Under the pieces are notes generated by a model that saw only the letters and a list, made by a program, of their open reading frames with translations, had not been told where the DNA came from and did no database searches. From NCBI RefSeq assembly GCF_900111745.1, contig NZ_FOIJ01000019.1, forward strand, positions 62,001 to 126,000: DNA of 64,000 nucleotides. Reading direction: 5' to 3'. Positions 48,345-60,560 of this stretch are shown in pieces. Position 1 is the first letter of the stretch, and the number at the start of each line of letters is the position of its first letter. A program made the position numbers and the translations under genes. This stretch comes from Stigmatella erecta (lineage in GTDB: Bacteria > Myxococcota > Myxococcia > Myxococcales > Myxococcaceae).

Positions 48345-49688
48345 TCACGGCAAGGCCTGTGGCCGCGAGAGGACGCGCAGGCCCGTGAGCGGACTTCCGG
48401 AGGTGAAAGCCGTGGTCCGGCCCCACAGCAGGGTGGACGAGGCCTGGGGCAGCCCCAGGCCCGAGTCCAGGTACTCCAGCAGCAGGCGCCTCTGCACGGC
48501 GTCATACGCCGGCATCAGGGCGTGGGGGGGGCGGAGCGTGCGGCCCAGGCTGGAGGGGAAGGTCTGGCTGGAGGTCAGCACCGGGACGGAGGTGTTCTTC
48601 CCCTCGGCCGTCAGGGAGAACGTCTGCAGCCCGTTCAGGCTCAGCGCGGCGCGCGGCATGAGCCCCCCGGGTGTCCACTCGTGGTAGCTCAGGGTGGGGG
48701 GGGTCGAGAACTCCTCCACCCACAGCCCGCCCGGCTCGTAGCCCGCCACGGTCCCGTTGAACCCCGTGCAGGCGGAGGCCGTGCGCTCGAGGCGGCCGTT
48801 CACCAGGGTGTAGGGGCAGGCCTGGTGGGAGAACGAGGAGCTGGAGCCGAAGGGCCGGCCGGCGGCGATGGCCAGCGTGTCCCCCGCGCGCATCAGCACG
48901 GCCTGGGGCCCCAGCCCGGAAGGCAGCTCCGTGCCCGTGGCCCAGCGCGTGGGGCCTCCGCCCGTGAGCGCCGTGCCGTCGAAGGCCACGTGCTGGACCG
49001 TCTGGCCATGGAGCGCCACGAGCGTCTCCGGCGTGGCCAGCACCGCCTCCACCTTGCCCTCGGCATGGGGCCAGGTTCCCGTGAGCACCAGCTCCGTGCC
49101 CGTGTCCACGTAGCGCTCGAACCGCTGGGGCTCCATCCGCCACACCACCTCGCCGGCCACGGCGAGGCGGCTGCCGGGGAAGCTGCGCACGAGGGTGCCC
49201 TCGCGCAGCACGCGCGCGTCGCAGACCCATGCGCCGGCCTGGGTGCGCTCCAGCGTGCCGCACTCGAAGGGCAGCAGGACGGGGGCCGTCTCCCCGGAGC
49301 GGTCCCGGGCCGCGTGGAGGTCCGCCTGGATGATGCCCCCCACCGGATCGAACGCGGCGAAGAGGTGGTAGCGGCCCGCCTGTTGCGGCAGGAAGTGGAG
49401 GACGCTCAAGGTGGGGGTGGCCGGATCAAACGCCTTCTGGACCGGGACGGGCAGGTTGTCCGGGCCGGAGAGCTCCACCGCCAGGGAGGAGGGGCGCGTC
49501 TGCTCCGGCGAGCACCCTGGCATCGCCGCCTGGACCATCACGCGCGCGGGCGCCCCCACCAGCACCAGCTCCATGACGAAGGGCTGCGGCGCCGGGCCCT
49601 CGGCGCAGCCGATGGGGTCCGGGCAGCCCGGCAGGCCCGCGAGCAGCGCCAGGGCCCCGAGCGGGGCCAGGAGGCGCCCGGGGCTCAT
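48345..49688 (-). CDS. Paralogous lipoprotein 1 (unknown, coupled to glpK)
   Basis: The 447-residue protein begins MSPGRLLAPLGALALLAGLPGC, a lipoprotein signal with Cys22, and runs in parallel with lipoprotein 2 over its length. Its ATG overlaps the glpK stop (ATGA at 49685-49688), so it is translated as the second cistron after glycerol kinase. It has a Cys-containing early domain (CSPEQTRPSSLAVELSGPDNLPVPVQKAFDP) and then propeller-like beta repeats (SRLAVAGEVVWRMEPQRFERYVDTG). The link to glycerol metabolism is only positional. No enzymatic motif is visible. Confidence 0.75.
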   Translation of the reverse strand: MSPGRLLAPLGALALLAGLPGCPDPIGCAEGPAPQPFVMELVLVGAPARVMVQAAMPGCSPEQTRPSSLAVELSGPDNLPVPVQKAFDPATPTLSVLHFLPQQAGRYHLFAAFDPVGGIIQADLHAARDRSGETAPVLLPFECGTLERTQAGAWVCDARVLREGTLVRSFPGSRLAVAGEVVWRMEPQRFERYVDTGTELVLTGTWPHAEGKVEAVLATPETLVALHGQTVQHVAFDGTALTGGGPTRWATGTELPSGLGPQAVLMRAGDTLAIAAGRPFGSSSSFSHQACPYTLVNGRLERTASACTGFNGTVAGYEPGGLWVEEFSTPPTLSYHEWTPGGLMPRAALSLNGLQTFSLTAEGKNTSVPVLTSSQTFPSSLGRTLRPPHALMPAYDAVQRRLLLEYLDSGLGLPQASSTLLWGRTTAFTSGSPLTGLRVLSRPQALP

Positions 49689-51169
49689 GCCCGCTCCACC
49701 GCGCGCTTCCACTTGTCCAGGTGCCGCTGGCGCACCTCGGGTTTCATCCGGGGCTTGAAGGTGCGCTCGGCCTTCCACGCGCGGCGGATGGCCTCCGGGC
49801 TGCTCCACACCCCGGCGCCCAGCCCGCCCAGGAAGGCCGCGCCCAGGCTCGTCGTCTCCAGGTTGCGCGGGCGCACCACCGGGGTGCCCAGCACGTCCGC
49901 CTGGTACTGCATGAGCAGGTTGTTGGCCGCCGCGCCCCCGTCCACCTTGAAGGCGGGGATGTCCCGGCCACTGTCGTGGCGCATCGCGTCCGCCAGGTCG
50001 TGAATCTGCAGCGCCATGCCCTCCAGCACCGCGCGCGCCAGGTGCGCCACCGTGGTGGAGCGGTCGATGCCCGCGAACAGCCCGCGCGCCTCCGGGCGCC
50101 AGTGCGGCGCGCCCAGCCCCGCCAGCGCCGGCACGAAGACGACGTCCCCGGAGTCCTTCACGCTCTCGGCCAGCGCCTCGATGTCCGGGGCGCGCTTGAT
50201 GACCTTGAGCCCATCGCGCAGCCACTGCACCGCGGCCCCCGCGATGAAGGAGCTGCCCTCCAGCGCATAGCTGGTGCGCTCGCCCAGGCGCCACGCCACC
50301 GTGGTGAGCAGCCCCGCGGTGGAGCGCACCGGCGTGCTCCCGGTGTTCATCAGCAGGAAGGCCCCCGTGCCGTAGGTGCACTTGGACTCGCCGGGCTCGA
50401 AGCAGGCCTGGCCGAAGAGCGCCGCCTGCTGGTCGCCCGCCATGCCCGAGATGGGGATGCCATCCGGCAGGCTCTTCATCCCCTTCGTGGTGCCGTACAC
50501 CTCCGCCGAGCCGCGAATCTGCGGCAGGCACGCGGCCGGCACGCCCAGGAGCGCCCGCAGCTCGTCATCCCAGGTGAGCGAGCGCAGGTCCATGAGCAGC
50601 GTGCGGCTGGCGTTGGACACGTCGGTGACGTGCACCGCGCCCCCGGTGAGCTGATAGACGAGCCACGTGTCGATGGTGCCGAAGCACACCTCGCCCTTCT
50701 CCGCGCGCGCCCGGGCCCCCTTCACGTGCTCGAACAGCCAGGTGAGCTTGGTGCCCGAGAAGTATGGATCCAACACCAGCCCCGTCACCTCGCGCACCCG
50801 GGGCTCCACGCCGCGCGCCTTGAGCCCCTGGCAGATGTCCGCGGTGCGCCGGTCCTGCCACACGATGGCCCGCGCCAGCGGCTTGCCCGTCCCGCGGTGC
50901 CACAGGCCTGTGGTTTCCCGCTGGTTGGTGATGCCCACCGCGGCGATGTCCTGCCCCTTGAGCCCCGCGTCCCGCAGCGCCCGGCTGATGCAGAATTCGC
51001 TGGAGGCCCAAATTTCCTCCAGGTCGTGCTCCACCCACGAGGGCTTGGGGAAGTGCTGGGTGAACTCGCGGTAGGAGCGGCCCACCACCTGGAGCCGCGC
51101 GTCGAGGATGGTGACGTGCGTGCCGGTGGTGCCCTGATCGATCGCCAGGACGTGCTTCGCCTTCGCCAT
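49685..51169 (-). CDS. glpK: Glycerol kinase
   Basis: The 494-residue FGGY-family kinase phosphorylates glycerol to sn-glycerol 3-phosphate in the cytosol. Family motifs: phosphate-1 AIDQGTTGTHVTILD, glycerol-binding TNQRETTGLWHR and WQDRRT, ISGMAGDQQAALFGQACFEPGESKCTYGTGAFLL, and adenosine motif FKVDGGAAANNLLMQYQADVLGTPVVRP. The length is standard. A strong GGAGGAGG precedes the ATG at 51169. No glpF or glpD gene is adjacent; the following cistrons are two exported lipoproteins. Confidence 0.97.
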   Translation of the reverse strand: MAKAKHVLAIDQGTTGTHVTILDARLQVVGRSYREFTQHFPKPSWVEHDLEEIWASSEFCISRALRDAGLKGQDIAAVGITNQRETTGLWHRGTGKPLARAIVWQDRRTADICQGLKARGVEPRVREVTGLVLDPYFSGTKLTWLFEHVKGARARAEKGEVCFGTIDTWLVYQLTGGAVHVTDVSNASRTLLMDLRSLTWDDELRALLGVPAACLPQIRGSAEVYGTTKGMKSLPDGIPISGMAGDQQAALFGQACFEPGESKCTYGTGAFLLMNTGSTPVRSTAGLLTTVAWRLGERTSYALEGSSFIAGAAVQWLRDGLKVIKRAPDIEALAESVKDSGDVVFVPALAGLGAPHWRPEARGLFAGIDRSTTVAHLARAVLEGMALQIHDLADAMRHDSGRDIPAFKVDGGAAANNLLMQYQADVLGTPVVRPRNLETTSLGAAFLGGLGAGVWSSPEAIRRAWKAERTFKPRMKPEVRQRHLDKWKRAVERA

Positions 51170-51249
51170 GAATGTCCTCCTCCGGGCCTTGCCGGATGGC
51201 CGGACACCTTAGCCGAGGCCGAGGAGTGGGCAGGATGGCTTCGAGGGTT

Positions 51250-51255
51250 TAACCT
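51250..51255 (+). promoter_or_regulatory. -10-like element TAACCT before the FHA gene
   Basis: TAACCT ends 9 bases before the ATG at 51265, with a run of G between that might also serve as a weak ribosome binding site. Confidence 0.3.
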
Positions 51256-51264
51256 GGGGGGGCC

Positions 51265-51795
51265 ATGCCGTCCGTGCACCAGCTCCGCCCCTTCGCTGAA
51301 GCCCCTCTGGAGGCCTTCCGGGCCGCGTCCGGGCCGGTGGCCCTCATTCAGCAGCCGCCGGACCCCGTCTTCCAGCGGGTGGCGCGCCAGCTCGGCGAGG
51401 GGCGCACCGTGGTCATGGCCCACCGCACCCGGCTGGTGGAGCGGCTCCTGGCCATGCTCCAGGGCTTCCACCACCTGGAAGTCCACCTGCTCCAGCCCCG
51501 CCGGGATGGGGAGGTCTTCACTGTAGGACGGTTGGATACCTGTGTGCTGGTGGTGCCGGACCCGTCCGTCTCCAAGCTCCACGCCATGCTGCGCTGGAAC
51601 GCGCAGGAGAACCGCTGCACGGTGGTGGACGCGGGCTCGATGAACGGCACCTTCGTCAACGCCGTGCCGCTGGGCGCCCAGCAGGAGCTGACGCTCAACG
51701 ACGGGGATGCGCTGGCCTTCGGGGACTCGCAGTTCCTCTACGTGCACATCGAGACGCTGCACGCGCACCTGCGGCTGCTGCAGGACCCCTCGTAG
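51265..51795 (+). CDS. FHA-domain protein
   Basis: The 176-residue protein has an N-terminal helical part (about 1-75) and a C-terminal forkhead-associated domain with the phosphothreonine-binding signature residues: FTVGRLDTCVLVVPDPSVSKLHAMLRW (Gly-Arg and Ser-x-x-His) and VDAGSMNGTFVNAVPL (Asn-Gly). FHA domains bind phosphothreonine on partners of Ser/Thr kinases, and such kinases are abundant in myxobacteria; one is encoded 8.5 kb upstream. The binding partner is unknown. It is a single gene, divergent from glpK. Confidence 0.9.
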   Translation: MPSVHQLRPFAEAPLEAFRAASGPVALIQQPPDPVFQRVARQLGEGRTVVMAHRTRLVERLLAMLQGFHHLEVHLLQPRRDGEVFTVGRLDTCVLVVPDPSVSKLHAMLRWNAQENRCTVVDAGSMNGTFVNAVPLGAQQELTLNDGDALAFGDSQFLYVHIETLHAHLRLLQDPS

Positions 51796-51853
51796 GACGG
51801 GCGCCCCCCGCGGCAGGGGCTTCCCCCGCGAGAGGCGTCTGCCCGCGCCCGCA

Positions 51854-52075
51854 TCAGTAGACGCGGCGCCGGTTCATCAGGCTGCGCGTGAGGTAGGCGG
51901 CGGCGCCGCCCATGGCCATGCGGCCCAGGGAGCCCCCGAAGAAGCCGGAGGAGGGGGCGCGCCGGTAGCCCCGGCCGTAGGAGGAGCTCCAACTGCTGGA
52001 GGAGCCGCGGCCATAGCCGTAGCTGCGGCGAGAGGCGAGACCGAGGGCGCTCAACAGGTTTCCGAGAATGGCCAT
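51854..52075 (-). CDS. Small Gly/Ser/Tyr/Arg-rich protein, 73 residues
   Basis: The start at 52075 is preceded by CGGAG, and the product begins MAILGNLLSALGLASRRS. A central low-complexity part (YGYGRGSSSSWSSSYGRGYRR) leads to GGSLGRMAMGGAAAYLTRSLMNRR. The N-terminal helix and the C-terminal glycine-alanine helix are mildly hydrophobic, so a membrane-associated or surface protein is possible. The longer frame reaching 52141 adds only unrelated residues. Function unknown. Confidence 0.6.
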   Translation of the reverse strand: MAILGNLLSALGLASRRSYGYGRGSSSSWSSSYGRGYRRAPSSGFFGGSLGRMAMGGAAAYLTRSLMNRRRVY

Positions 52076-52312
52076 GACGTGACTCCGGTGAAGGGTGGCT
52101 CCCTGTCCCAGGCCCAGCGCCGGAGCGGGAGTGCTCCACAAGGTGGCCTCTCACCGGGGGCGGGACAGCCCTGGGGGGCTCCTTCGCGCCCGGCCCTTTC
52201 TGGGACTGACAGGGCGGACGGGGCCTGCCTGCCTGCCCGCCGGGGGCCCAGCGGCCATGCCTACTTTTGAACCCATGGGCGGCGTGCCGCGTGCCCGGGA
52301 GGTTCCAAGGCC

Positions 52313-53737
52313 ATGGCTCACATCACGGACATCCCAACCGGTGGGGCCTCGGCCCTGCCCCCGCAGGTCTCCACCGCCAAGATTTCCCTGGTGGCCGCCG
52401 TGGCCGCGCTGGGCGGGTTCCTCTTCGGGTTCGACACCTCGGTCATCAACGGGGCCGTGGGCGCGCTGCAGTCCACCTTCGCTGCGAGCCCCTGGGCCAC
52501 GGGCCTCGCCGTCTCCTCCGCGCTGGTGGGCTCCGCGGTGGGCGCCTTCTTCGCGGGCTCCCTGGCGGACCGGATCGGCCGCGCGCGCACCATGGGGGCG
52601 GCCTCGCTCCTGTTCGTCATCAGCGCGCTCGGCTCCGGCCTGTGCTTCAGCCTGTGGGACTTGAGCGCCTGGCGGCTGCTGGGCGGCGTGGCCATTGGCA
52701 TGGCCAGCGTGGTGGCGCCCGCGTACATCGCCGAGATCGCCCCCGCGCACCTGCGGGGCCGGCTCGGGGCGCTGCAGCAGCTGGCCATCGTCATTGGCAT
52801 CTTCGCCGCGCTGCTCGGAGACTATGCGCTGGCCACCCGCGCGGGCTCGGCCACGGAGCCGCTCTGGTTCGGCGTCGCCGCCTGGCGCTGGATGTTCTGG
52901 TCCGCGCTGCCCGCCGCGGCCCTCTACGGCATCGGCGCCCTCTTCATCCCCGAGTCCCCGCGCTACCTCGTCGCCCGGGGCAACGAGACGCAGGCGCTCG
53001 CCGTGCTGCGCGGCCTCGTGGGGGACTCGGCGCCCTCCAAGGTGGTGGAGATCCGCCGCTCGCTGCGCACCGAGGCGGTGCCGCGCTTCAGGGACTTGCG
53101 CGGGCCGCGCTTCGGCCTGCTGCCCATCGTCTGGGTGGGCATCCTCCTGGCGATGCTCCAGCAGTTCGTGGGCATCAACGTCATCTTCTACTACTCGAGC
53201 GTGCTGTGGCAGGCGGTGGGCTTCTCCGAGAAGGACTCGCTGGCCATCACCGTCATCACCAGCTTCACCAACATCGTCACCACCCTCATCGCCATCGCGT
53301 GCGTGGACCGCTTCGGGCGCAAGCCGCTGCTCCTCGCGGGCTCCCTCGGCATGGCGCTCACGCTGGGGGGCCTGGCGTACCTGTTCGGCACCGCGGGCCT
53401 GGATGCCCAGGGCAACCCGGTGCTCCAGGGCAGCCGGGGGATGCTGGCGCTCATCTGCGCCAACGCCTACGTGTTCAGCTTCGGCTTCTCGTGGGGCCCC
53501 GTCGTCTGGGTGCTGCTCGGGGAGATGTTCCCCAACCGCATCCGCGCCCTGGCCCTGTCCATCGCCGCCGCGGCGCAGTGGGGGGCCAACTTCGCGGTGT
53601 CCGCCACCTTCCCCTCGCTCAAGGGGGTGGGGCTGGGGTGGGCCTACGGGCTGTACACCACCGCCGCCGTGCTCTCGCTCTTCTTCGCCTGGCGCTACAT
53701 CCGCGAGACGAAGGGCAAGGAGCTGGAGCAGATGTAG
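52313..53737 (+). CDS. Sugar-porter MFS transporter
   Basis: The 474-residue protein has twelve predicted membrane helices and the sugar-porter signatures: GGFLFGFDTSVINGAVG in helix 1, ADRIGRART in the loop after helix 2, APAHLRGRLGALQQLAIVIG in helices 4-5, PESPRYLVARG before the central loop, QQFVGINVIFYYS in helix 7, and DRFGRKPLLL after helix 8. It is a proton symporter for a monosaccharide or polyol of the xylose/galactose/inositol type; the exact sugar is not predictable. It is a single gene preceded by CGGGAGGTTCCAAGG. Confidence 0.93.
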   Translation: MAHITDIPTGGASALPPQVSTAKISLVAAVAALGGFLFGFDTSVINGAVGALQSTFAASPWATGLAVSSALVGSAVGAFFAGSLADRIGRARTMGAASLLFVISALGSGLCFSLWDLSAWRLLGGVAIGMASVVAPAYIAEIAPAHLRGRLGALQQLAIVIGIFAALLGDYALATRAGSATEPLWFGVAAWRWMFWSALPAAALYGIGALFIPESPRYLVARGNETQALAVLRGLVGDSAPSKVVEIRRSLRTEAVPRFRDLRGPRFGLLPIVWVGILLAMLQQFVGINVIFYYSSVLWQAVGFSEKDSLAITVITSFTNIVTTLIAIACVDRFGRKPLLLAGSLGMALTLGGLAYLFGTAGLDAQGNPVLQGSRGMLALICANAYVFSFGFSWGPVVWVLLGEMFPNRIRALALSIAAAAQWGANFAVSATFPSLKGVGLGWAYGLYTTAAVLSLFFAWRYIRETKGKELEQM

Positions 53738-53744
53738 CGGGGCT

Positions 53745-54563
53745 TCAGGAGAGGTGCTCCATCGCCTGGAGGCGCTGGAGCACCTCGTGGGGGTGCTGCA
53801 CTTCGGCGAGCCGGTCCGCCAGCCCCAGGCTCGCCAGCCGCGCCACGTGCGTCAATTGGAGACGGGCGATCCGCCCCCCCTCCCGGCTCAGGAGCACCAC
53901 CACCAGCCGCAGCGGCTGCTCATCCGGCGTCTCCGCCCGGAGCGGCCGGGCCAGCGTCACCAGCGCCGCCACGGTGGGCCCGTCCGCCAGGGAGGCCCGC
54001 GGCACGGCCACGCCATTGCCCACGGCGCTGGAGACCTGCTCCTCGCGCCGCAGCAGGTGGGTGGCCAGCGCCGCCGCGCCCGTGCCCGGCACGGCGGACG
54101 CCAGGCGCCCGGCGGCGACATCCAGCGCGTCCTCCAGCCGGGAACAGGACAGCTGGAGCACGAGCCGCTCCGGGGTGAGCAGCGGCGCCAGGGTGAGCGG
54201 CGGCTCCTCCCGGAGGGCGTCCCGCGAGGGAAACTCCGCGTCGAGCAACTGCCGCAGGCGCGCCAGCTGCGGGCCGGTGAGCTTCCGCCGGGCGATCTCC
54301 AGGAACAGCGGGCCCGCGCCGGGCTCCTGCTCCAGGTAGTTCGCCATGAGGGGGCTGACCTGATGGGCCACGTCCATCAGCAGCGTGGGCGGGATGTCCA
54401 GCTCCCGGGCGATGGCGGAGATGCGCGCGGGGGTGGGCACCGCGTCCAGCCCGTGCTCCACCCGGCTGAGGTAGGCGCTCGACACCCCGATGCGCTTGGC
54501 GAGATCCCTCAGCGAGAGGCCCGCGTCCACCCGCAGCAGCCGCAGCGTGGCCCCGACGTGCAT
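53745..54563 (-). CDS. XRE-type regulator with a degenerate PTS EIIA type-2 domain
   Basis: The 272-residue protein starts at 54563 (MHVGATLRLLRVDAGLSLRDLAKRIGVSSAYLSRVEHG), a classic HTH_3 helix-turn-helix (residues 1-62). After a helical linker, residues about 125-270 form a mannitol/fructose-type EIIA domain (LLTPERLVLQL, LLRREEQVSSAVGNGVAVPRASLADGPTVAALVTLARPL). At the site where EIIA has its phospho-accepting His (PHA), this protein has Arg189 (PRA), so it cannot be phosphorylated in the normal way. It probably reads another signal or acts constitutively. It starts one base after the stop of the CPA2 antiporter gene, so it is expected to regulate, or be co-regulated with, ion transport. 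Confidence 0.85.
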   Translation of the reverse strand: MHVGATLRLLRVDAGLSLRDLAKRIGVSSAYLSRVEHGLDAVPTPARISAIARELDIPPTLLMDVAHQVSPLMANYLEQEPGAGPLFLEIARRKLTGPQLARLRQLLDAEFPSRDALREEPPLTLAPLLTPERLVLQLSCSRLEDALDVAAGRLASAVPGTGAAALATHLLRREEQVSSAVGNGVAVPRASLADGPTVAALVTLARPLRAETPDEQPLRLVVVLLSREGGRIARLQLTHVARLASLGLADRLAEVQHPHEVLQRLQAMEHLS

Positions 54564-54564
54564 A

Positions 54565-56721
54565 TCAGGAGGCGCCCTCGGCGGGCATGTCTCCCACCGC
54601 TGCGGAGGCCACCGCCGGGGCGGCCGACGCCCGCGGGTGGCGGACGATGAGCAACGAGCCGGGCGCGTCGCGGATGATGCGCTCGCGCGACAGGCCGAAG
54701 AGCCGGTCCTCCAGGCCCCACTCGGAGCCGGCCCCAATCACCGTCAAGTCGTAGCCCTGCGAGGCCTCGGCCAGCGCCGCCTCCTCGGGCGAGTCGTTCT
54801 CCACGACCTTGAAGCGCACCTGGCCCAGCTCCTGGGGGAAGAGCTCCTCCACCAGCGCGCGGCCCCGGGGGCCCTGCGAGGCGCTGCCCGGCGCGGTGAC
54901 GTGCAGCACCGTCACCTCGGCGCCCGTGTGCCGCAGGATGCGCCGCGCCAGCGCGAGCGCCTGCCGGTCATTCTGGCTGCCGATGAAGGGCACCAGCACC
55001 CGCTTGGTCTCGGACAGGCCGCGGTCCACCAGCACCGCCACGCTCGTGGTGGCCTCGCGCATCACCTCGTGCACGGTGCCGCCCAGCCGCGTGCGGCTGA
55101 ACAGCGGCTTGTGCCAGCCGAGCAGCACCAGGTCCGCGCGCTTGGCCTCGGCGGTGCGGCAGATGTCCGCGGAGGGCTCCGAGGAGACGAACGACAGCGA
55201 GCGCACCGCCAGCTCCAGGCGCTTGGCGCTGGAGAGCAGCGGCGCGAGCGCGCCCTCGTCCGGGGGCCGGGGCTCGTGCAGCCGGTGCATGCTGGAGCGC
55301 TCGGCGGAGATGAGGTGCAGGGCGTAGAGCTGGGCGTTCTCCGCGGCGCTGCCGCCGGTGCCGGTGAGCGCCCGCCCCAGGGCCGCCATGCCCGGGCCCG
55401 CCTGGCCGTGGGAGACGCACATCAGCACGGTGAAGGGCGCGGGGCCGGTGGCCACCGGGGGCAGATCCACCCTGTCCCGGGCGATCTCCGCGGTGGGGTA
55501 GATCCAGTTGAGCAGCGGCGAGGTGATGAACGTCGTCACCAGCGCCATCACCACCATCATGGTGAAGAGGGTGGGGGAGATGACGCCCAGGTCCAGGCCG
55601 ATGTTGAGCACGATGAGCTCCATCAACCCGCGGGTGTTCATCAGCACGCCCACGGCGCTGGCCTCGCGCCAGCGCAGGCCGGTGAGCCGCGCCGCCACCG
55701 TGCTGCCGCCGAACTTGCCCAGGCAGGCCAGCAGGATGATGAGCCCGCACATGGCCCACGCATCCACGCTGTTGAGCAGCCCCACCTGCGTGCGCAGGCC
55801 GCTGTAGGCGAAGAAGACGGGCAGGAGCAGCACCACCGCCACGTCCTCGAGCCGCTCCGCCAGCGCATCGGCGAGCCCGCCCTCCTTGGGGATGACGGCG
55901 CCGAAGAGGAAGGCGCCGAACAGCGCGTGGATGCCGATGAGCTCCGTGGCCCAGCTGGAGGCCAGCAGCAGGATCAGCGTGCCCGCCACGACGTTCTGGG
56001 TGAGCCCGTCCTTGCTGGCCACCCGCGCGCCCAGCCGCGAGAGGAACGGCCGCACCACCAGCAGCATGAAGACGATGTAGAGCAGCGCGAACAGCGTGGT
56101 GATGCCCGCGCCGGTGAGGCTCGAGGCCCGCACGATGGACACCACGAAGGCAAGCAAGCACCACGCCGTCACGTCATCCACCGCCGCGCAGGTGATGCTG
56201 ATGACGCCTACCCGCGACTGGAGCAGGCCGCGCTCGCTGAGGATGCGCGCCAGCACCGGGAAGGCGGTGATGCTCATCGCCACGCCCATGAAGAGCACGA
56301 ACGACAGGAAGGGCACCTCGGGGGACGACAGGGCGCGGTAGAGCCACAGGGCGCTGGCGCCCGCGCCCAGGATGAACGGGACGATGATGCTGGAGTGGCT
56401 GATGGCCACCGAGCTGTGGCCCCGCCCCTGGAGCAGCTTCGGATCCAGCTCCAGCCCGATGAGGAACATGAAGAGGATGAGCCCCACCTGGCTGAGCATC
56501 TTCAGCACCGGCAGCGAGCTGTCCGGGAAGAGGCTGTGCATCAGGTCCGGCGCCAGCCAGCCGAGCAGCGAGGGGCCCAGCATCACGCCCGCGACGACTT
56601 CCGCGATGACCAGGGGCTGGCCCAGCCATCGCGTCACTTTGCCGATGAGCCGGGAGAGCCCGATGATGACGATGAGCTGCACGATGAGCACCGTGAGCGG
56701 GTTCTGGGCCAGTCCGTGCAT
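54565..56721 (-). CDS. CPA2-type cation/proton antiporter with tandem UspA domains
   Basis: The 718-residue protein has two parts. Residues 1 to about 395 form the KefB/NhaA-like membrane domain, with about twelve helices and the ion-site motif TCAAVDDVTAWC. Residues about 410-560 and 575-700 are two UspA-like domains, each with an ATP-loop-like stretch (ADLVLLGWHKPLFSRTRLGGTVHEVMREATTSVAVLV and YDLTVIGAGSEWGLEDRLFGLSRERIIRDAPGSLLIV). Usp regulatory tails on CPA2 carriers are known and may sense nucleotides. It exchanges Na+ or K+ for protons across the inner membrane. The ATG at 56721 follows a strong AAGGAG. A degenerate EIIA-type regulator follows at once. Confidence 0.9.
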   Translation of the reverse strand: MHGLAQNPLTVLIVQLIVIIGLSRLIGKVTRWLGQPLVIAEVVAGVMLGPSLLGWLAPDLMHSLFPDSSLPVLKMLSQVGLILFMFLIGLELDPKLLQGRGHSSVAISHSSIIVPFILGAGASALWLYRALSSPEVPFLSFVLFMGVAMSITAFPVLARILSERGLLQSRVGVISITCAAVDDVTAWCLLAFVVSIVRASSLTGAGITTLFALLYIVFMLLVVRPFLSRLGARVASKDGLTQNVVAGTLILLLASSWATELIGIHALFGAFLFGAVIPKEGGLADALAERLEDVAVVLLLPVFFAYSGLRTQVGLLNSVDAWAMCGLIILLACLGKFGGSTVAARLTGLRWREASAVGVLMNTRGLMELIVLNIGLDLGVISPTLFTMMVVMALVTTFITSPLLNWIYPTAEIARDRVDLPPVATGPAPFTVLMCVSHGQAGPGMAALGRALTGTGGSAAENAQLYALHLISAERSSMHRLHEPRPPDEGALAPLLSSAKRLELAVRSLSFVSSEPSADICRTAEAKRADLVLLGWHKPLFSRTRLGGTVHEVMREATTSVAVLVDRGLSETKRVLVPFIGSQNDRQALALARRILRHTGAEVTVLHVTAPGSASQGPRGRALVEELFPQELGQVRFKVVENDSPEEAALAEASQGYDLTVIGAGSEWGLEDRLFGLSRERIIRDAPGSLLIVRHPRASAAPAVASAAVGDMPAEGAS

Positions 56722-56825
56722 CGTCTCTCCTTGGACCAAAGGGTGATAAGGAAGCACTTATCAACCATGTCCAGAGGCGTCAACCCACGGTCTTCCGGAC
56801 CGTTGGGTGGCCGCGTGCGCGCGGA

Positions 56826-58016
56826 TCATCGCGGGGGCCGGGAGGCCTCGGGCGCGTCCCCGTAGCCCGTCAGCTCCACGTAGCCCCGGCCCGTCACCGG
56901 CTGGCCCGCGCGCGTGCCCGTGAACGTCACCGCGCCTTCCCAGTAGAGGACGACCACGGGCAGCTCCTGATCCGCCTGGGCCGGGAGGATGTCGAGCTCG
57001 AGCCCCTGCGAGGGCACCGCGAGGTGCCAGCGCGAGGGATACGCCACGCCGCTGCGCGGACTCTTCCACGTGTCGCGCACCTCGAGCCTCACGTCCTCGC
57101 GCTTCAGCTGCACGGCGGCGCCCTGCGGCGGCACGAAGGAGCCCGCGCTGCGCGGGGCCACCGCGCCGTCGCGCTGGCGCAGCTGGTAGTACATGAGCTC
57201 GGTGCTGTCCGAGAGCTGGAGGGCGAACCAGTCCCAGCCAATCTGCGAGGCGTCGAGCCCCACGGTGCTCCACTCGCGGTCCATCCAGCTCGCGCCCGTC
57301 ACCGCGTGCGTGCGCCCCTCCACCGTCACCGTGCCACGCGAGGGCATGCGCGTGAGCGAGTAGTAATAGGAGGCGCCCTCGCCGGCCCCCTTCTGGCTCA
57401 GCCCCTGGTTGCCCTGGAGCACGGGCGGCTTGCCCTCCTCCAGCTCCAGCGCCAGGTCCACGCCCTCCGCCGCCGCCACCAGGCGCATGGGCAGCGCCCC
57501 GTCCTTCACGGCCCGCGCCTCCCAGTCCTCCAGCCACACCCGGAAGGGCTGCGTCTGGGCCCCCGCGAGCCCCAGCGCCGCGCGGTTGAACCGCTGGAAG
57601 ACATGGAAGCGCTTCGCCTCGATGTCCGACAGCGCGAAGTGGCCCATGTAGAGCTGGCGCGTGCCCCACTCGGAGGCGCGCTCCGGGGCCGTGGGGGCCA
57701 GCGCGTTGCGGAACAGCGTGAGCTGGTAGCCGAAGGCGCGCCCCTCCGCCGTCTGCAGGTTGCCCGTCCAGTACCACCACTCGGTGCGGAACGCCTCGTG
57801 GGGCCCGTGGTCCTCGGGGAAGTGGAACGGCCGGACCTCCAGGGCGCGCGCGTAGCCCGTGTCCCCGCCGCCCGTCTGGCCCAGCAGCGAGGCCACCGTG
57901 AGGCCCGGGGCCGGCGGCGGCGCGGGCGGCTCGCGCGTGACGAGGAACACCCCCCCGGCCAGCATCGCCAGCACCGCCCCCACCCCCCGCACGAGCCCCT
58001 TGCCGCCACGCTGCAT
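56826..58016 (-). CDS. AttH/CrtC-like lipocalin-type protein of an ABC operon
   Basis: The 396-residue protein has an N-terminal signal anchor (GAVLAMLAGGVFLVT) and the AttH/carotenoid-hydratase-like double lipocalin domain, recognised from ALEVRPFHFPEDHGPHEAFRTEWWYWTGNLQ, GYQLTLFRNAL, YSLTRMPSRGTVTVEGRTHAVTGASWMDREWS and VGLDASQIGWDWFALQL. In Agrobacterium the attEFGH locus pairs such a protein with an ABC ATPase and permeases; the same set is present here (this gene, the large permease, the ATPase). The mature protein is probably periplasmic and binds a lipid-like ligand. It begins 3 bases after the permease stop. Confidence 0.85.
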   Translation of the reverse strand: MQRGGKGLVRGVGAVLAMLAGGVFLVTREPPAPPPAPGLTVASLLGQTGGGDTGYARALEVRPFHFPEDHGPHEAFRTEWWYWTGNLQTAEGRAFGYQLTLFRNALAPTAPERASEWGTRQLYMGHFALSDIEAKRFHVFQRFNRAALGLAGAQTQPFRVWLEDWEARAVKDGALPMRLVAAAEGVDLALELEEGKPPVLQGNQGLSQKGAGEGASYYYSLTRMPSRGTVTVEGRTHAVTGASWMDREWSTVGLDASQIGWDWFALQLSDSTELMYYQLRQRDGAVAPRSAGSFVPPQGAAVQLKREDVRLEVRDTWKSPRSGVAYPSRWHLAVPSQGLELDILPAQADQELPVVVLYWEGAVTFTGTRAGQPVTGRGYVELTGYGDAPEASRPPR

Positions 58017-58019
58017 GGC

Positions 58020-60560
58020 CTACTCCTCCCGAAGGGCCAACGCCGGGTTGGCGCGGGACATTCGCCACGCGGGGTACAGCCCCGCGAGCCCCGCGGCAGC
58101 CAGGGCCAGCCCCACCGCCTGGAGCAGCACCCCCGGGGTGACGGCGAGCTGGAGCGTCCACCCGAAGGAGCGCTGGTTGATGACGTGCACGAGGATGTAC
58201 GCGAGAGCCAGCCCCAGCGGCACGGCGAACAGGCCCGCCAGCAGCCCGAGCAGCCCCGTCTGGAGCGAGACGAGCCCCCAGAGCTGACCCGGCGTCAGCC
58301 CGGTGGCGCGCAGCACGGCGAACTCCCGGGCCCGCTCGAGCTGGAGCGCCATCAGCGCGCTGAGCACGCCCACGAAGGCCACCCCCACCGCGAGCAGCCG
58401 CAGCACCTGGGTGATGGTGAAGGTGCGGTCGAACACCTCCAGCGAGCCCTCGCGCAGCACGCGGTTGGAGCGCACGTGGACGAGTTGCCTGTCGCCCACG
58501 CGCGCGCGCACCCGCTCCACCAGCGCATCCACGTCCTGCCCGGGCGCGGCGTAGAGCGCCAGGCCCGTCACGCCCCGGTCCTCGAAGGCGGCCTCGTAGG
58601 TGGCGCGCGTCATGAGCACCGCGCCCACGTCCGAGCCGAAGTCGTAGTACACGCCGCGCACCCGGAAGTCGCGCGGCCCCCGGTCCGTGCGCAGCCGCAC
58701 CGTGCTGCCCCGGTGCACGTGGCGGTGCACGCTCAGGGGCTCGGAGACGATGAGCGTGTCCGGGGCCTCCAGCTCGCGCCACACCGTGTCCGCGTCGCCC
58801 TCCTTGAAGCGGTAGGCGCGCGGGAGACCCGGCGGAAACCCGATGGCCGTCAGGTCCGTGGCAACGCCGTCCACGTCCACCTTCACCGAGCGGAGGGTGG
58901 AGTGGGCCGCCACGCCCGGCGTCCCGGCCAGGTGCCCGGCCAGGCCCGGGACGAAGGCGCTGTCCCCGCGCCGGGCCATGAGCGAGGGCGGGGAGGCGTA
59001 AATGTCCGCCTGGAGCGAGGACTCCAGCCACTCGGCCACCGTGCCGCGGAAGCTGGCCACCATGAGGCCCACGCCCACGGTGGTGGACACGGCGATCATC
59101 AGCGCCGCCAGCGCCACGGAGGTGCGGCTCAGGCTCGTGCGCACCCCGCGCGCCGCCATGCGCCCCAGCAGCCCGAACACCGCGCCCAGCGGGCGGGCCG
59201 CGCCGAGCACCAGCTTCCCGGTCGTCCACGGCACCAGCAGCGCCGCGCCGAGCTGCACGCAGAACAGGCCCACGTACGCCGGCGGCAGCGCCTGGGTGGG
59301 CAGCACCAGCAGCCCCGCGCCCGCGCCCAGCACGAGCAGCCCCCACAGGGCGAGCCGCGGCGCGCGGCCCCGGGCCAGGTCCTCCGAGGCGGAGCGGCGC
59401 ATCGTGGTGGCCGGGGGCGAGCGCGCGGCCTCCCACGCGGGCACGAGCGCCGCGCCCAGCGTGGCCCCCAGCCCCAGCGCCACGCCCTTGGCGAACAGCA
59501 GTGGCTCCAGCGACAGCCGGCGCACGCTCACCACGAAGTACAAGTCGTTGAGGGTCTGCGTGACGAGCCCCACGAGCCCCCGGCCCAGCAGCACCCCCAG
59601 CAGGAGCCCCGCCGCGGTGCCCACCGCGCCGAGCAGCGCGGCCTCGCCGAGCACCAGGGCGAACAGCTCCCCGCGGGTGATGCCCAGGGCCCGCAGCCGC
59701 CCGAGCTGCCCGCGCCGCTGCACCACCGAGAAGGTCATCGTGTTGTAGATGAGGAACATGCCCACCACGAGCGCCAGCAGGGACAGCGCGGTGAGGTTGG
59801 TGCGGAAGGCCCGCGTCATCTGCTCCACGGTGTGGCCGCGCGAGGCGGCGCGCAGCAGCTCCACGCCCGGCGGCAGCCCCTGCCGCAGCCGGGCCGCTTC
59901 CGCCGCGTCCCCGAGCTTCAAGTCGATGCGGGACAGGCGCCCGGTGAGGCCGAGCACCTCCTGGGCGGTGGACACATCGGCGAGAATCAACCCCTCCAGG
60001 GCCCGGCGGGTGCGCGCGTCGGAAGGGGTGAGGAGGCCGAGCACACGCAGCGTCCGGAGCTGGCCGCCCACCGCCACCTGGAAAGAAGCTCCCGGCGCCG
60101 GCGCGCCCACCAGCCGCGCCGTCTCCGCCGTCATCAGCACCGTGCCCGGCTCGGTGAGGAGCGAGGCGAGCCGGGGGCCCTGCCGGTCCGACACGTAGGG
60201 CCGGAAGGGCTCCTCGGAGAAGGGGTCCACGCCCAGGAGCGTGAGGGGGCGGCGGTCCCCCTGGGCGGCCCGCACATGGCCCTCCACCACGGGGGCGGAG
60301 GGGGGCATGCCGGGGCGCAACCGCAGCGCGCTATATAAGGATGCGGGCAAGCCCGTGGGCCCCCCGGTGAGCTGGTGCGTGGCCTGGCCCGCCACCGTGC
60401 TGGTGGACTGCTCGAAGGCCTGGAGGGCGCTGTGGCTCGCCAGGTCGATGGAGACCACCACCGCCACGCCCAGCGCGATGCCCAGCAGCGACAGGGCGGT
60501 GAGCCACGGGTGGCTCCCCAGGTGGCGGGCGCTGGCGCGCGCGAGCAGCCGCCGGCTCAT
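58020..60560 (-). CDS. Large FtsX-type ABC permease (two FtsX domains)
   Basis: The 846-residue protein has ten predicted membrane helices in two FtsX sets (four after the first soluble domain, including LALVVGMFLIYNTMTFSVVQRRGQLGRLRALGITRGELFALVL, and a final group with LLRLLAVGVAFVGVLSALMALQLERAREFAVLRATGLTPGQLWGLV) and two large periplasmic loops. In attEFGH the two permeases are separate proteins; here they seem joined into one chain. It works with the adjacent ATPase in lipoprotein or lipid traffic rather than solute uptake. It starts 4 bases inside the ATPase stop (ATGA overlap), so the subunits are co-translated. Confidence 0.88.
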   Translation of the reverse strand: MSRRLLARASARHLGSHPWLTALSLLGIALGVAVVVSIDLASHSALQAFEQSTSTVAGQATHQLTGGPTGLPASLYSALRLRPGMPPSAPVVEGHVRAAQGDRRPLTLLGVDPFSEEPFRPYVSDRQGPRLASLLTEPGTVLMTAETARLVGAPAPGASFQVAVGGQLRTLRVLGLLTPSDARTRRALEGLILADVSTAQEVLGLTGRLSRIDLKLGDAAEAARLRQGLPPGVELLRAASRGHTVEQMTRAFRTNLTALSLLALVVGMFLIYNTMTFSVVQRRGQLGRLRALGITRGELFALVLGEAALLGAVGTAAGLLLGVLLGRGLVGLVTQTLNDLYFVVSVRRLSLEPLLFAKGVALGLGATLGAALVPAWEAARSPPATTMRRSASEDLARGRAPRLALWGLLVLGAGAGLLVLPTQALPPAYVGLFCVQLGAALLVPWTTGKLVLGAARPLGAVFGLLGRMAARGVRTSLSRTSVALAALMIAVSTTVGVGLMVASFRGTVAEWLESSLQADIYASPPSLMARRGDSAFVPGLAGHLAGTPGVAAHSTLRSVKVDVDGVATDLTAIGFPPGLPRAYRFKEGDADTVWRELEAPDTLIVSEPLSVHRHVHRGSTVRLRTDRGPRDFRVRGVYYDFGSDVGAVLMTRATYEAAFEDRGVTGLALYAAPGQDVDALVERVRARVGDRQLVHVRSNRVLREGSLEVFDRTFTITQVLRLLAVGVAFVGVLSALMALQLERAREFAVLRATGLTPGQLWGLVSLQTGLLGLLAGLFAVPLGLALAYILVHVINQRSFGWTLQLAVTPGVLLQAVGLALAAAGLAGLYPAWRMSRANPALALREE

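Follow-up and report, generated by a model that had tools for sequence, protein, structure and literature searches.

Clade-specific loss of the phospho-histidine in a family of XRE-EIIA regulators, probable autorepressors of a cation/proton antiporter operon in Myxococcaceae

DNA-binding regulators carrying an EIIA-type domain are represented by the PRD regulators of the MtlR, LicR and LevR type. The regulator described here differs from them in its DNA-binding domain. Neither a PRD (12 hits, E of 0.1 or lower) nor an EIIB domain was among its Pfam hits, and it falls outside the PRD regulators. It resembles SinR and the HTH_3-type XRE regulators with an added sensor (for example XRE-cupin proteins) in its N-terminal XRE helix-turn-helix (HTH), its probable role as a local regulator and a palindromic site; unlike in the XRE-cupin type, its sensor is a PTS EIIA domain. 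The EIIA family is shared with PtsN (EIIANtr; E. coli 1a6j, Burkholderia 3urr and 4gqx), whereas the fusion to an XRE domain and the loss of the phospho-His in one clade (the Arg clade) are not.

PtsN also links EIIA proteins to ion transport. In E. coli, unphosphorylated PtsN governs K+ transport through contact with TrkA, KdpD and YcgO (PMC13104625). YcgO, a K+/H+ antiporter, is inhibited when PtsN binds it, and phosphorylation weakens the binding (PMC11808508). The YcgO-PtsN pair thus combines an EIIA-type protein with a cation/proton antiporter, as does the operon studied here. However, YcgO is a CPA1 antiporter with putative RCK and CorC domains and no Usp domains, and it is inhibited post-translationally, whereas our locus holds a Usp-tailed antiporter and a transcription regulator in one operon; the precedent is one by analogy. 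Among the open-access papers listed, none dealt with an XRE-EIIA regulator or with this operon.

The window is a stretch of 64,000 nucleotides from Stigmatella erecta, and the features of the locus are collected in Table 1. The regulator frame is open upstream to a TTG at 54737, and the conserved start is the ATG given in the table.

Table 1. Features of the antiporter-regulator locus (positions in the window)
Feature	Position	Strand	Basis or remark
XRE-EIIA regulator gene (272 aa)	53745..54563, including stop	-	ATG at 54563 and stop ending at 53745; ATG start in 60/60 full orthologues, then H-x-GAT
XRE helix-turn-helix domain, residues 3-62	54378..54557	-	PF13560/PF01381
Type-2 EIIA (PtsN-like) domain, residues 128-263	53775..54182	-	PF00359
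Arg189 codon CGG at the phospho-His place	53997..53999	-	codon and alignment
Cation/proton antiporter gene, C-terminal Usp domains	54565..56721	-	conserved start ATG 56721 rather than GTG 56757
Cytoplasmic tail with two Usp stretches (best 584-706)	54640..55467, left boundary approximate	-	Pfam
Ribosome-binding site AGGAGA of antiporter gene	56726..56731	-	inferred
Predicted operator TGATAAG-N6-CTTATCA, perfect inverted repeat	56744..56763	.	conserved palindrome
Candidate -10 (ATAAGT or TAAGTG, 16 or 17 nt after -35), inside operator	56755..56761	-	inferred
-35 element TTGACG of antiporter promoter	56778..56783	-	sequence; promoter activity inferred

The N-terminal domain matched HTH_31 and HTH_3 at E about 1e-12, with 49.3 bits for HTH_31 (cut-off 27) and 48.3 bits for HTH_3 (cut-off 23), which places the protein in the XRE family. 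Consistently, SinR chains matched this part in a profile search against the PDB (E 5.3e-7). For the C-terminal part, the initial annotation had proposed a type-2 EIIA pattern in which Arg189, not His, follows Pro, and both observations are borne out. PTS_EIIA_2 scored 35.9 bits, above its gathering cut-off of 27, and the motif reads LLRREEQVSSAVGNGVAVPRA, with Arg189 directly after Pro188. PtsN chains of the PDB matched the EIIA domain with a 14-row profile (E 1.5e-17 for 4gqx) and placed their own PH motif over residue 189, so that Arg stands where PTS_EIIA_2 has its phospho-His. The regulator is not a PtsN equivalogue, scoring 39.5 versus 138.7 bits for TIGR01419 and 32.8 versus 221 bits for PRK10896. 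An AlphaFold2 model built from six sequences had a mean pLDDT of 58.1 for the whole regulator and 57.2 for the EIIA part; with this low-pLDDT model Foldseek ranked PtsN 3urr at the top (E 4e-3, probability 1.00, TM 0.48), and nothing reached E 0.001. The structural result agrees with the sequence assignment and is given no further weight. The window protein retains both its DNA-binding and its EIIA domain. Residue 189 cannot take phosphate from HPr or NPr in this species, and the dead phosphotransfer module that had been proposed for this DNA-binding protein stands for the window species but not for the family.

Of 96 Myxococcaceae genomes searched, 61 contain an orthologue of the regulator. 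When 195 genomes from across the phylum were searched with a profile, the same 61 were returned, with one more genome (G128), whose match covers only profile positions 111-259, the EIIA part, and is not a fused relative. Among these 195 genomes, the fused XRE-EIIA protein occurs in one family only. A mobile or phage origin was considered and rejected, as the viral contigs and plasmids searched contained no relative. The window protein and the 60 others, taken with their flanks, carry at residue 189 His (53), Arg (4), Tyr (2), Cys (1) or Phe (1). The initial annotation had suggested aligning the family to see whether Arg is fixed across myxobacteria, and it is not. It had also named close homologues with His, together with evidence of phosphorylation, as what would overturn its reading. 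The first half of this is provided: close His homologues exist, including that of G006, which by grouping belongs to the same genus as the window. None of G006, G060, G079 and G083 is among the eight non-His rows.

On a tree built without site 189, in which two rows are less than half filled, the residues at this site require no fewer than four switches between His and another residue. Three are losses in the crown (the tree minus two outgroup rows), Arg having arisen once and Tyr twice, and one is a change between crown and outgroup whose direction the tree does not set. The two Tyr rows are separate on the tree and both belong to the Corallococcus set, and the Cys and Phe rows are the two outgroup species. 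Repeated loss of the phospho-His place in this regulator family is a new point.

These losses would fit an EIIA domain that is phosphate-independent throughout the family and has served as a dimerisation or contact domain since the fusion, with His as a half-kept relic. Besides the three crown losses and the outgroup Cys and Phe, this reading draws on the rate of change at the site: in the crown, site 189 changes three times against an EIIA median of four, 61 of the 140 EIIA columns change no more often, and the site is less fixed than G182, which never changes, or V187 and P188, which change once each. (The HTH is stricter, with a median change of 0 and 41 of 63 columns, residues 3-65, unchanged.) In addition, the GST stretch, kept in 41/41 PtsN rows, is not kept in the regulator family. 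PtsN of the same family of bacteria (40 fetched loci and the own-genome copy) served as the yardstick here; it evolves slowly, with 56.6-98.7% identity to the own-genome copy, and also has its His in 41/41 rows. In contrast, the codons argue that His has been held. Codon 189 changes 14 times for three amino-acid changes, a ratio of 0.21 versus an EIIA median of 0.39 (46 of 140 EIIA columns have a ratio as low or lower), and selection seems to hold His in most lineages. In a separate count over the crown His rows, nine changes between CAC and CAT occurred with His kept. Together with His in 53 of the 61 orthologues, these synonymous changes rule out the strong form, a family-wide dead module, and leave the phosphate-independent reading unlikely. 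From these sequence comparisons, His seems to be under selection in most lineages and yet dispensable in several.

An argument from the second EIIA His was tried and dropped. The corresponding place, residue 233, which we take to be that of E. coli His120, is Arg in 43/61 and His in 8/61 regulators, and His in 41/41 PtsN rows. As a separate observation, H239 in the LxHVARLA stretch is conserved in 60/61 orthologues, more than the phospho-His place; the profile alignment puts Leu at this position in the E. coli PtsN chain.

The four Arg proteins, from the window, G003, G004 and G005, form a single clade with an SH-aLRT of 100, and use three Arg codons (CGG, CGT twice and AGG). On this tree Arg is one derived change, and the loss of His to Arg is specific to a four-species clade. 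Four separate genomes with three codons in one such clade leave practically no room for Arg189 as an artefact of sequencing or assembly, or as a peculiarity of one strain. Loss of the PTS as the cause of the His loss is likewise ruled out. EI matches were found in 90 of 92 and HPr matches in 91 of 92 family genomes, with an EIIA match in at least 90 of the 92, and the window's genome has four EI, four HPr and at least three other EIIA matches, its PtsN retaining the His. The same genome also contains a 956-aa open frame joining EIIA, HPr and EI domains (G000:C1:363057-364598).

The Arg clade differs from most other sets in how fast its EIIA domain diverges. The ratio of EIIA to antiporter protein divergence is 4.46 [2.96-5.88] in the Arg clade, against 1.07-2.62 in eight other sets without the four Arg species, all but one of them within 1.07-1.67. 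The exception is a His set, presumably Myxococcus xanthus-like, whose ratio of 2.62 [1.77-3.62] overlaps the interval of the Arg clade. When G020 was grouped with the four Arg species, the ratio was 2.03. The HTH of the Arg clade is nearly identical (p-distance 0.016), with a mean dN of 0.007, compared with 0.144 for the EIIA domain and 0.145 for the linker. This contrast would suit an EIIA domain that is decaying dead weight in the Arg clade, on a protein that works as a plain HTH repressor. However, none of the four genes is interrupted over its 272 codons, Arg is kept through the codon changes, and dN/dS of the EIIA domain is 0.43, below 1, within the 0.12-0.44 of the other sets and level with the 0.44 of the Corallococcus set (14 species, two with Tyr), all obtained by simple pairwise counting, uncorrected for base bias. 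Decay is thus improbable. Given intact reading frames in all four species and an Arg encoded in three different ways, the input domain of the Arg clade is read as being under relaxed or redirected constraint with DNA binding kept, as far as divergence patterns can suggest.

The surroundings of the pair also set the four Arg species apart. Glycerol kinase, FHA, MFS sugar porter, CrtC lipocalin and FtsX genes lie beside it in the window (49685-60560) and in the three other Arg genomes, and no match to these neighbours was found beside the pair in the other 57 loci, mostly inspected over about 7 kb per side, some less. Since the neighbours match only there, the pair has a private neighbourhood in the Arg clade; this and the His loss coincide in the same four species.

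The gene upstream of the regulator had been labelled a CPA2 antiporter with tandem UspA tails. Its exchanger domain is clear (PF00999, 201.4 bits against a cut-off of 26.2) and it has two Usp stretches, but it scored 147 bits with the curated CPA2 subfamily model TIGR00932, below the cut-off of 238.3; CPA2 is a fair label below curated level. Its longest ORF begins at GTG 56757, within the predicted operator. The regulator starts one base after the antiporter gene (TGA-T-ATG), as first reported. In 60/60 loci with an upstream flank, window included, the antiporter lies directly upstream of the regulator on the same strand, with a gap of -1 to 99 nt (five of the 60 gaps come from one of two methods only, the motif of the second having missed them). 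The locus of the 61st orthologue, in G080, is broken by a contig end and was left out of this count. Antiporter and regulator are therefore a fixed two-gene unit, a further new point. An apparent in-frame fusion of the two in G112 (gap -819) was discarded as an alignment running through the stop; the real gap is 12 nt. On the tree, the operon copy of G112 (L060), a genome coded g23, is placed with that of G002, which has a different genus code, and apart from the other g23 copies; this position suggests horizontal transfer of the unit.

Antiporter matches also occur in genomes that lack the regulator. Among 14 of the 35 regulator-less genomes (16 genomes searched, including two controls), five gave an antiporter match at E 1e-80 or better and nine gave none at that level. 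The match in G011 has 59% identity and no regulator in the 1.3 kb after it. G066, G021 and G064 have 57-62% identity, the match running from residue 4 to no further than 447 of 718; G062 has 40% identity.

The region upstream of 56721 had been proposed as a place to look for binding of the regulator, and a conserved palindrome was found there. Its core TAAG-N6-CTTA occurs in 59 of 60 antiporter promoters, whereas shuffling the mononucleotides of the 200-nt upstream regions would give 0.03, and the 60th promoter (G065) has by eye an inverted repeat whose arms are 7 nt apart. TTGAC stands 23-24 nt before TAAG in 56 of the 59 core-bearing promoters, and the inverted repeat overlaps the expected -10 of the antiporter promoter. 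A palindrome over the -10, which we regard as a predicted operator, is also a new point; repression is suggested by this position, not proven. When whole genomes were searched, 53 of the 57 that bear the regulator contained the exact TGRTAAG-N6-CTTAWCR, as against 0 of 35 without the regulator. Of the four regulator-bearing genomes that lack an exact site, G059 and G060 have it with one mismatch and the others are the two outgroup species. Usually the exact site is single in a regulator-bearing genome, and in the window's genome 56744-56763 is the sole place of the palindrome even when one mismatch is allowed. An operator-like site is thus conserved over the operon promoter, and the pattern is what a one-target autorepressor would leave. 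Together with the fixed two-gene unit, this palindrome strengthens the tie of regulator to antiporter that had first been drawn from adjacency.

The palindrome might instead belong to another regulator, with the XRE-EIIA protein acting elsewhere. The co-occurrence of palindrome and regulator is supportive but not independent, because operon and site tend to be jointly absent: the exact site is missing from all regulator-less genomes, but nine of the 14 tested also gave no antiporter match, so another protein could use the palindrome. What speaks against this is that there is usually one exact site per genome and that it lies in the promoter of the regulator's own operon, even where the neighbourhoods differ. 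We consider this alternative decidedly improbable.

The reading we favour, with some reserve, is that of a dedicated autorepressor of the antiporter-regulator operon, with a PtsN-like EIIA domain as input and the phospho-input lost in the Arg clade. We infer DNA binding, repression, phosphorylation in the His species and a contact between EIIA and antiporter. The frozen XRE domain, probably dimeric, would bind the inverted repeat; the bound protein would lie over the -10 of the sole evident promoter, and the antiporter would stay at a low level until the EIIA domain receives a signal. This domain would descend from a PtsN-like EIIA. In the His species, most of those examined, HPr may switch the EIIA domain by passing phosphate to it. 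In the Arg clade, the change from His to Arg would fix the protein in an unphosphorylated-like state and uncouple the operon from PTS flux, leaving contact or dimerisation through the EIIA fold as input, possibly with the Usp tail of the antiporter. An EIIA without His would be in the contact-competent state; the input would therefore be phosphate-tunable with His and contact-only in the Arg clade. The initial annotation had suggested a sensor converted to another input or to protein contact. This agrees with the impossibility of a phospho-His at residue 189 in the window species, but the loss is specific to a clade and not family-wide.

A bolder version is an antiporter-sensing switch, in which an XRE repressor captured a PtsN-like EIIA, docking on the Usp tail couples transport to transcription, and an overlaid phosphate input was shed independently in several lineages, giving a contact switch at one residue; we regard it as speculative and unlikely. 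Overall, the feature is real and well conserved, and the dead site is a clade-specific loss among probable antiporter-operon autorepressors. The natural replacements of His by Arg and Tyr (Cys and Phe in the outgroup) offer a natural experiment on how a bacterial switch can be rewired. Because an EIIA-DNA-binding fusion, an antiporter operon, a predicted operator and natural His replacements come together, whether EIIA needs phosphate to signal is directly testable in cultivated myxobacteria.

Exact sites in two places were seen in two genomes, G033 and G075. In the Corallococcus group, the second site of G075 is exact (L126 1501-1520; G075:C7:2636849-2636868) and lies by eye about 50 nt before an ORF resembling an ECF-type sigma factor; a second site with one mismatch occurs at G071:C1:9746511-9746530. 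The second site in G075 and G071 is a possible second target of the regulator. In G033, which groups with Archangium lansinium, the second exact operator-like site is at G033:C36:15371-15390 and reads TGATAAGTACCCACTTAACA.
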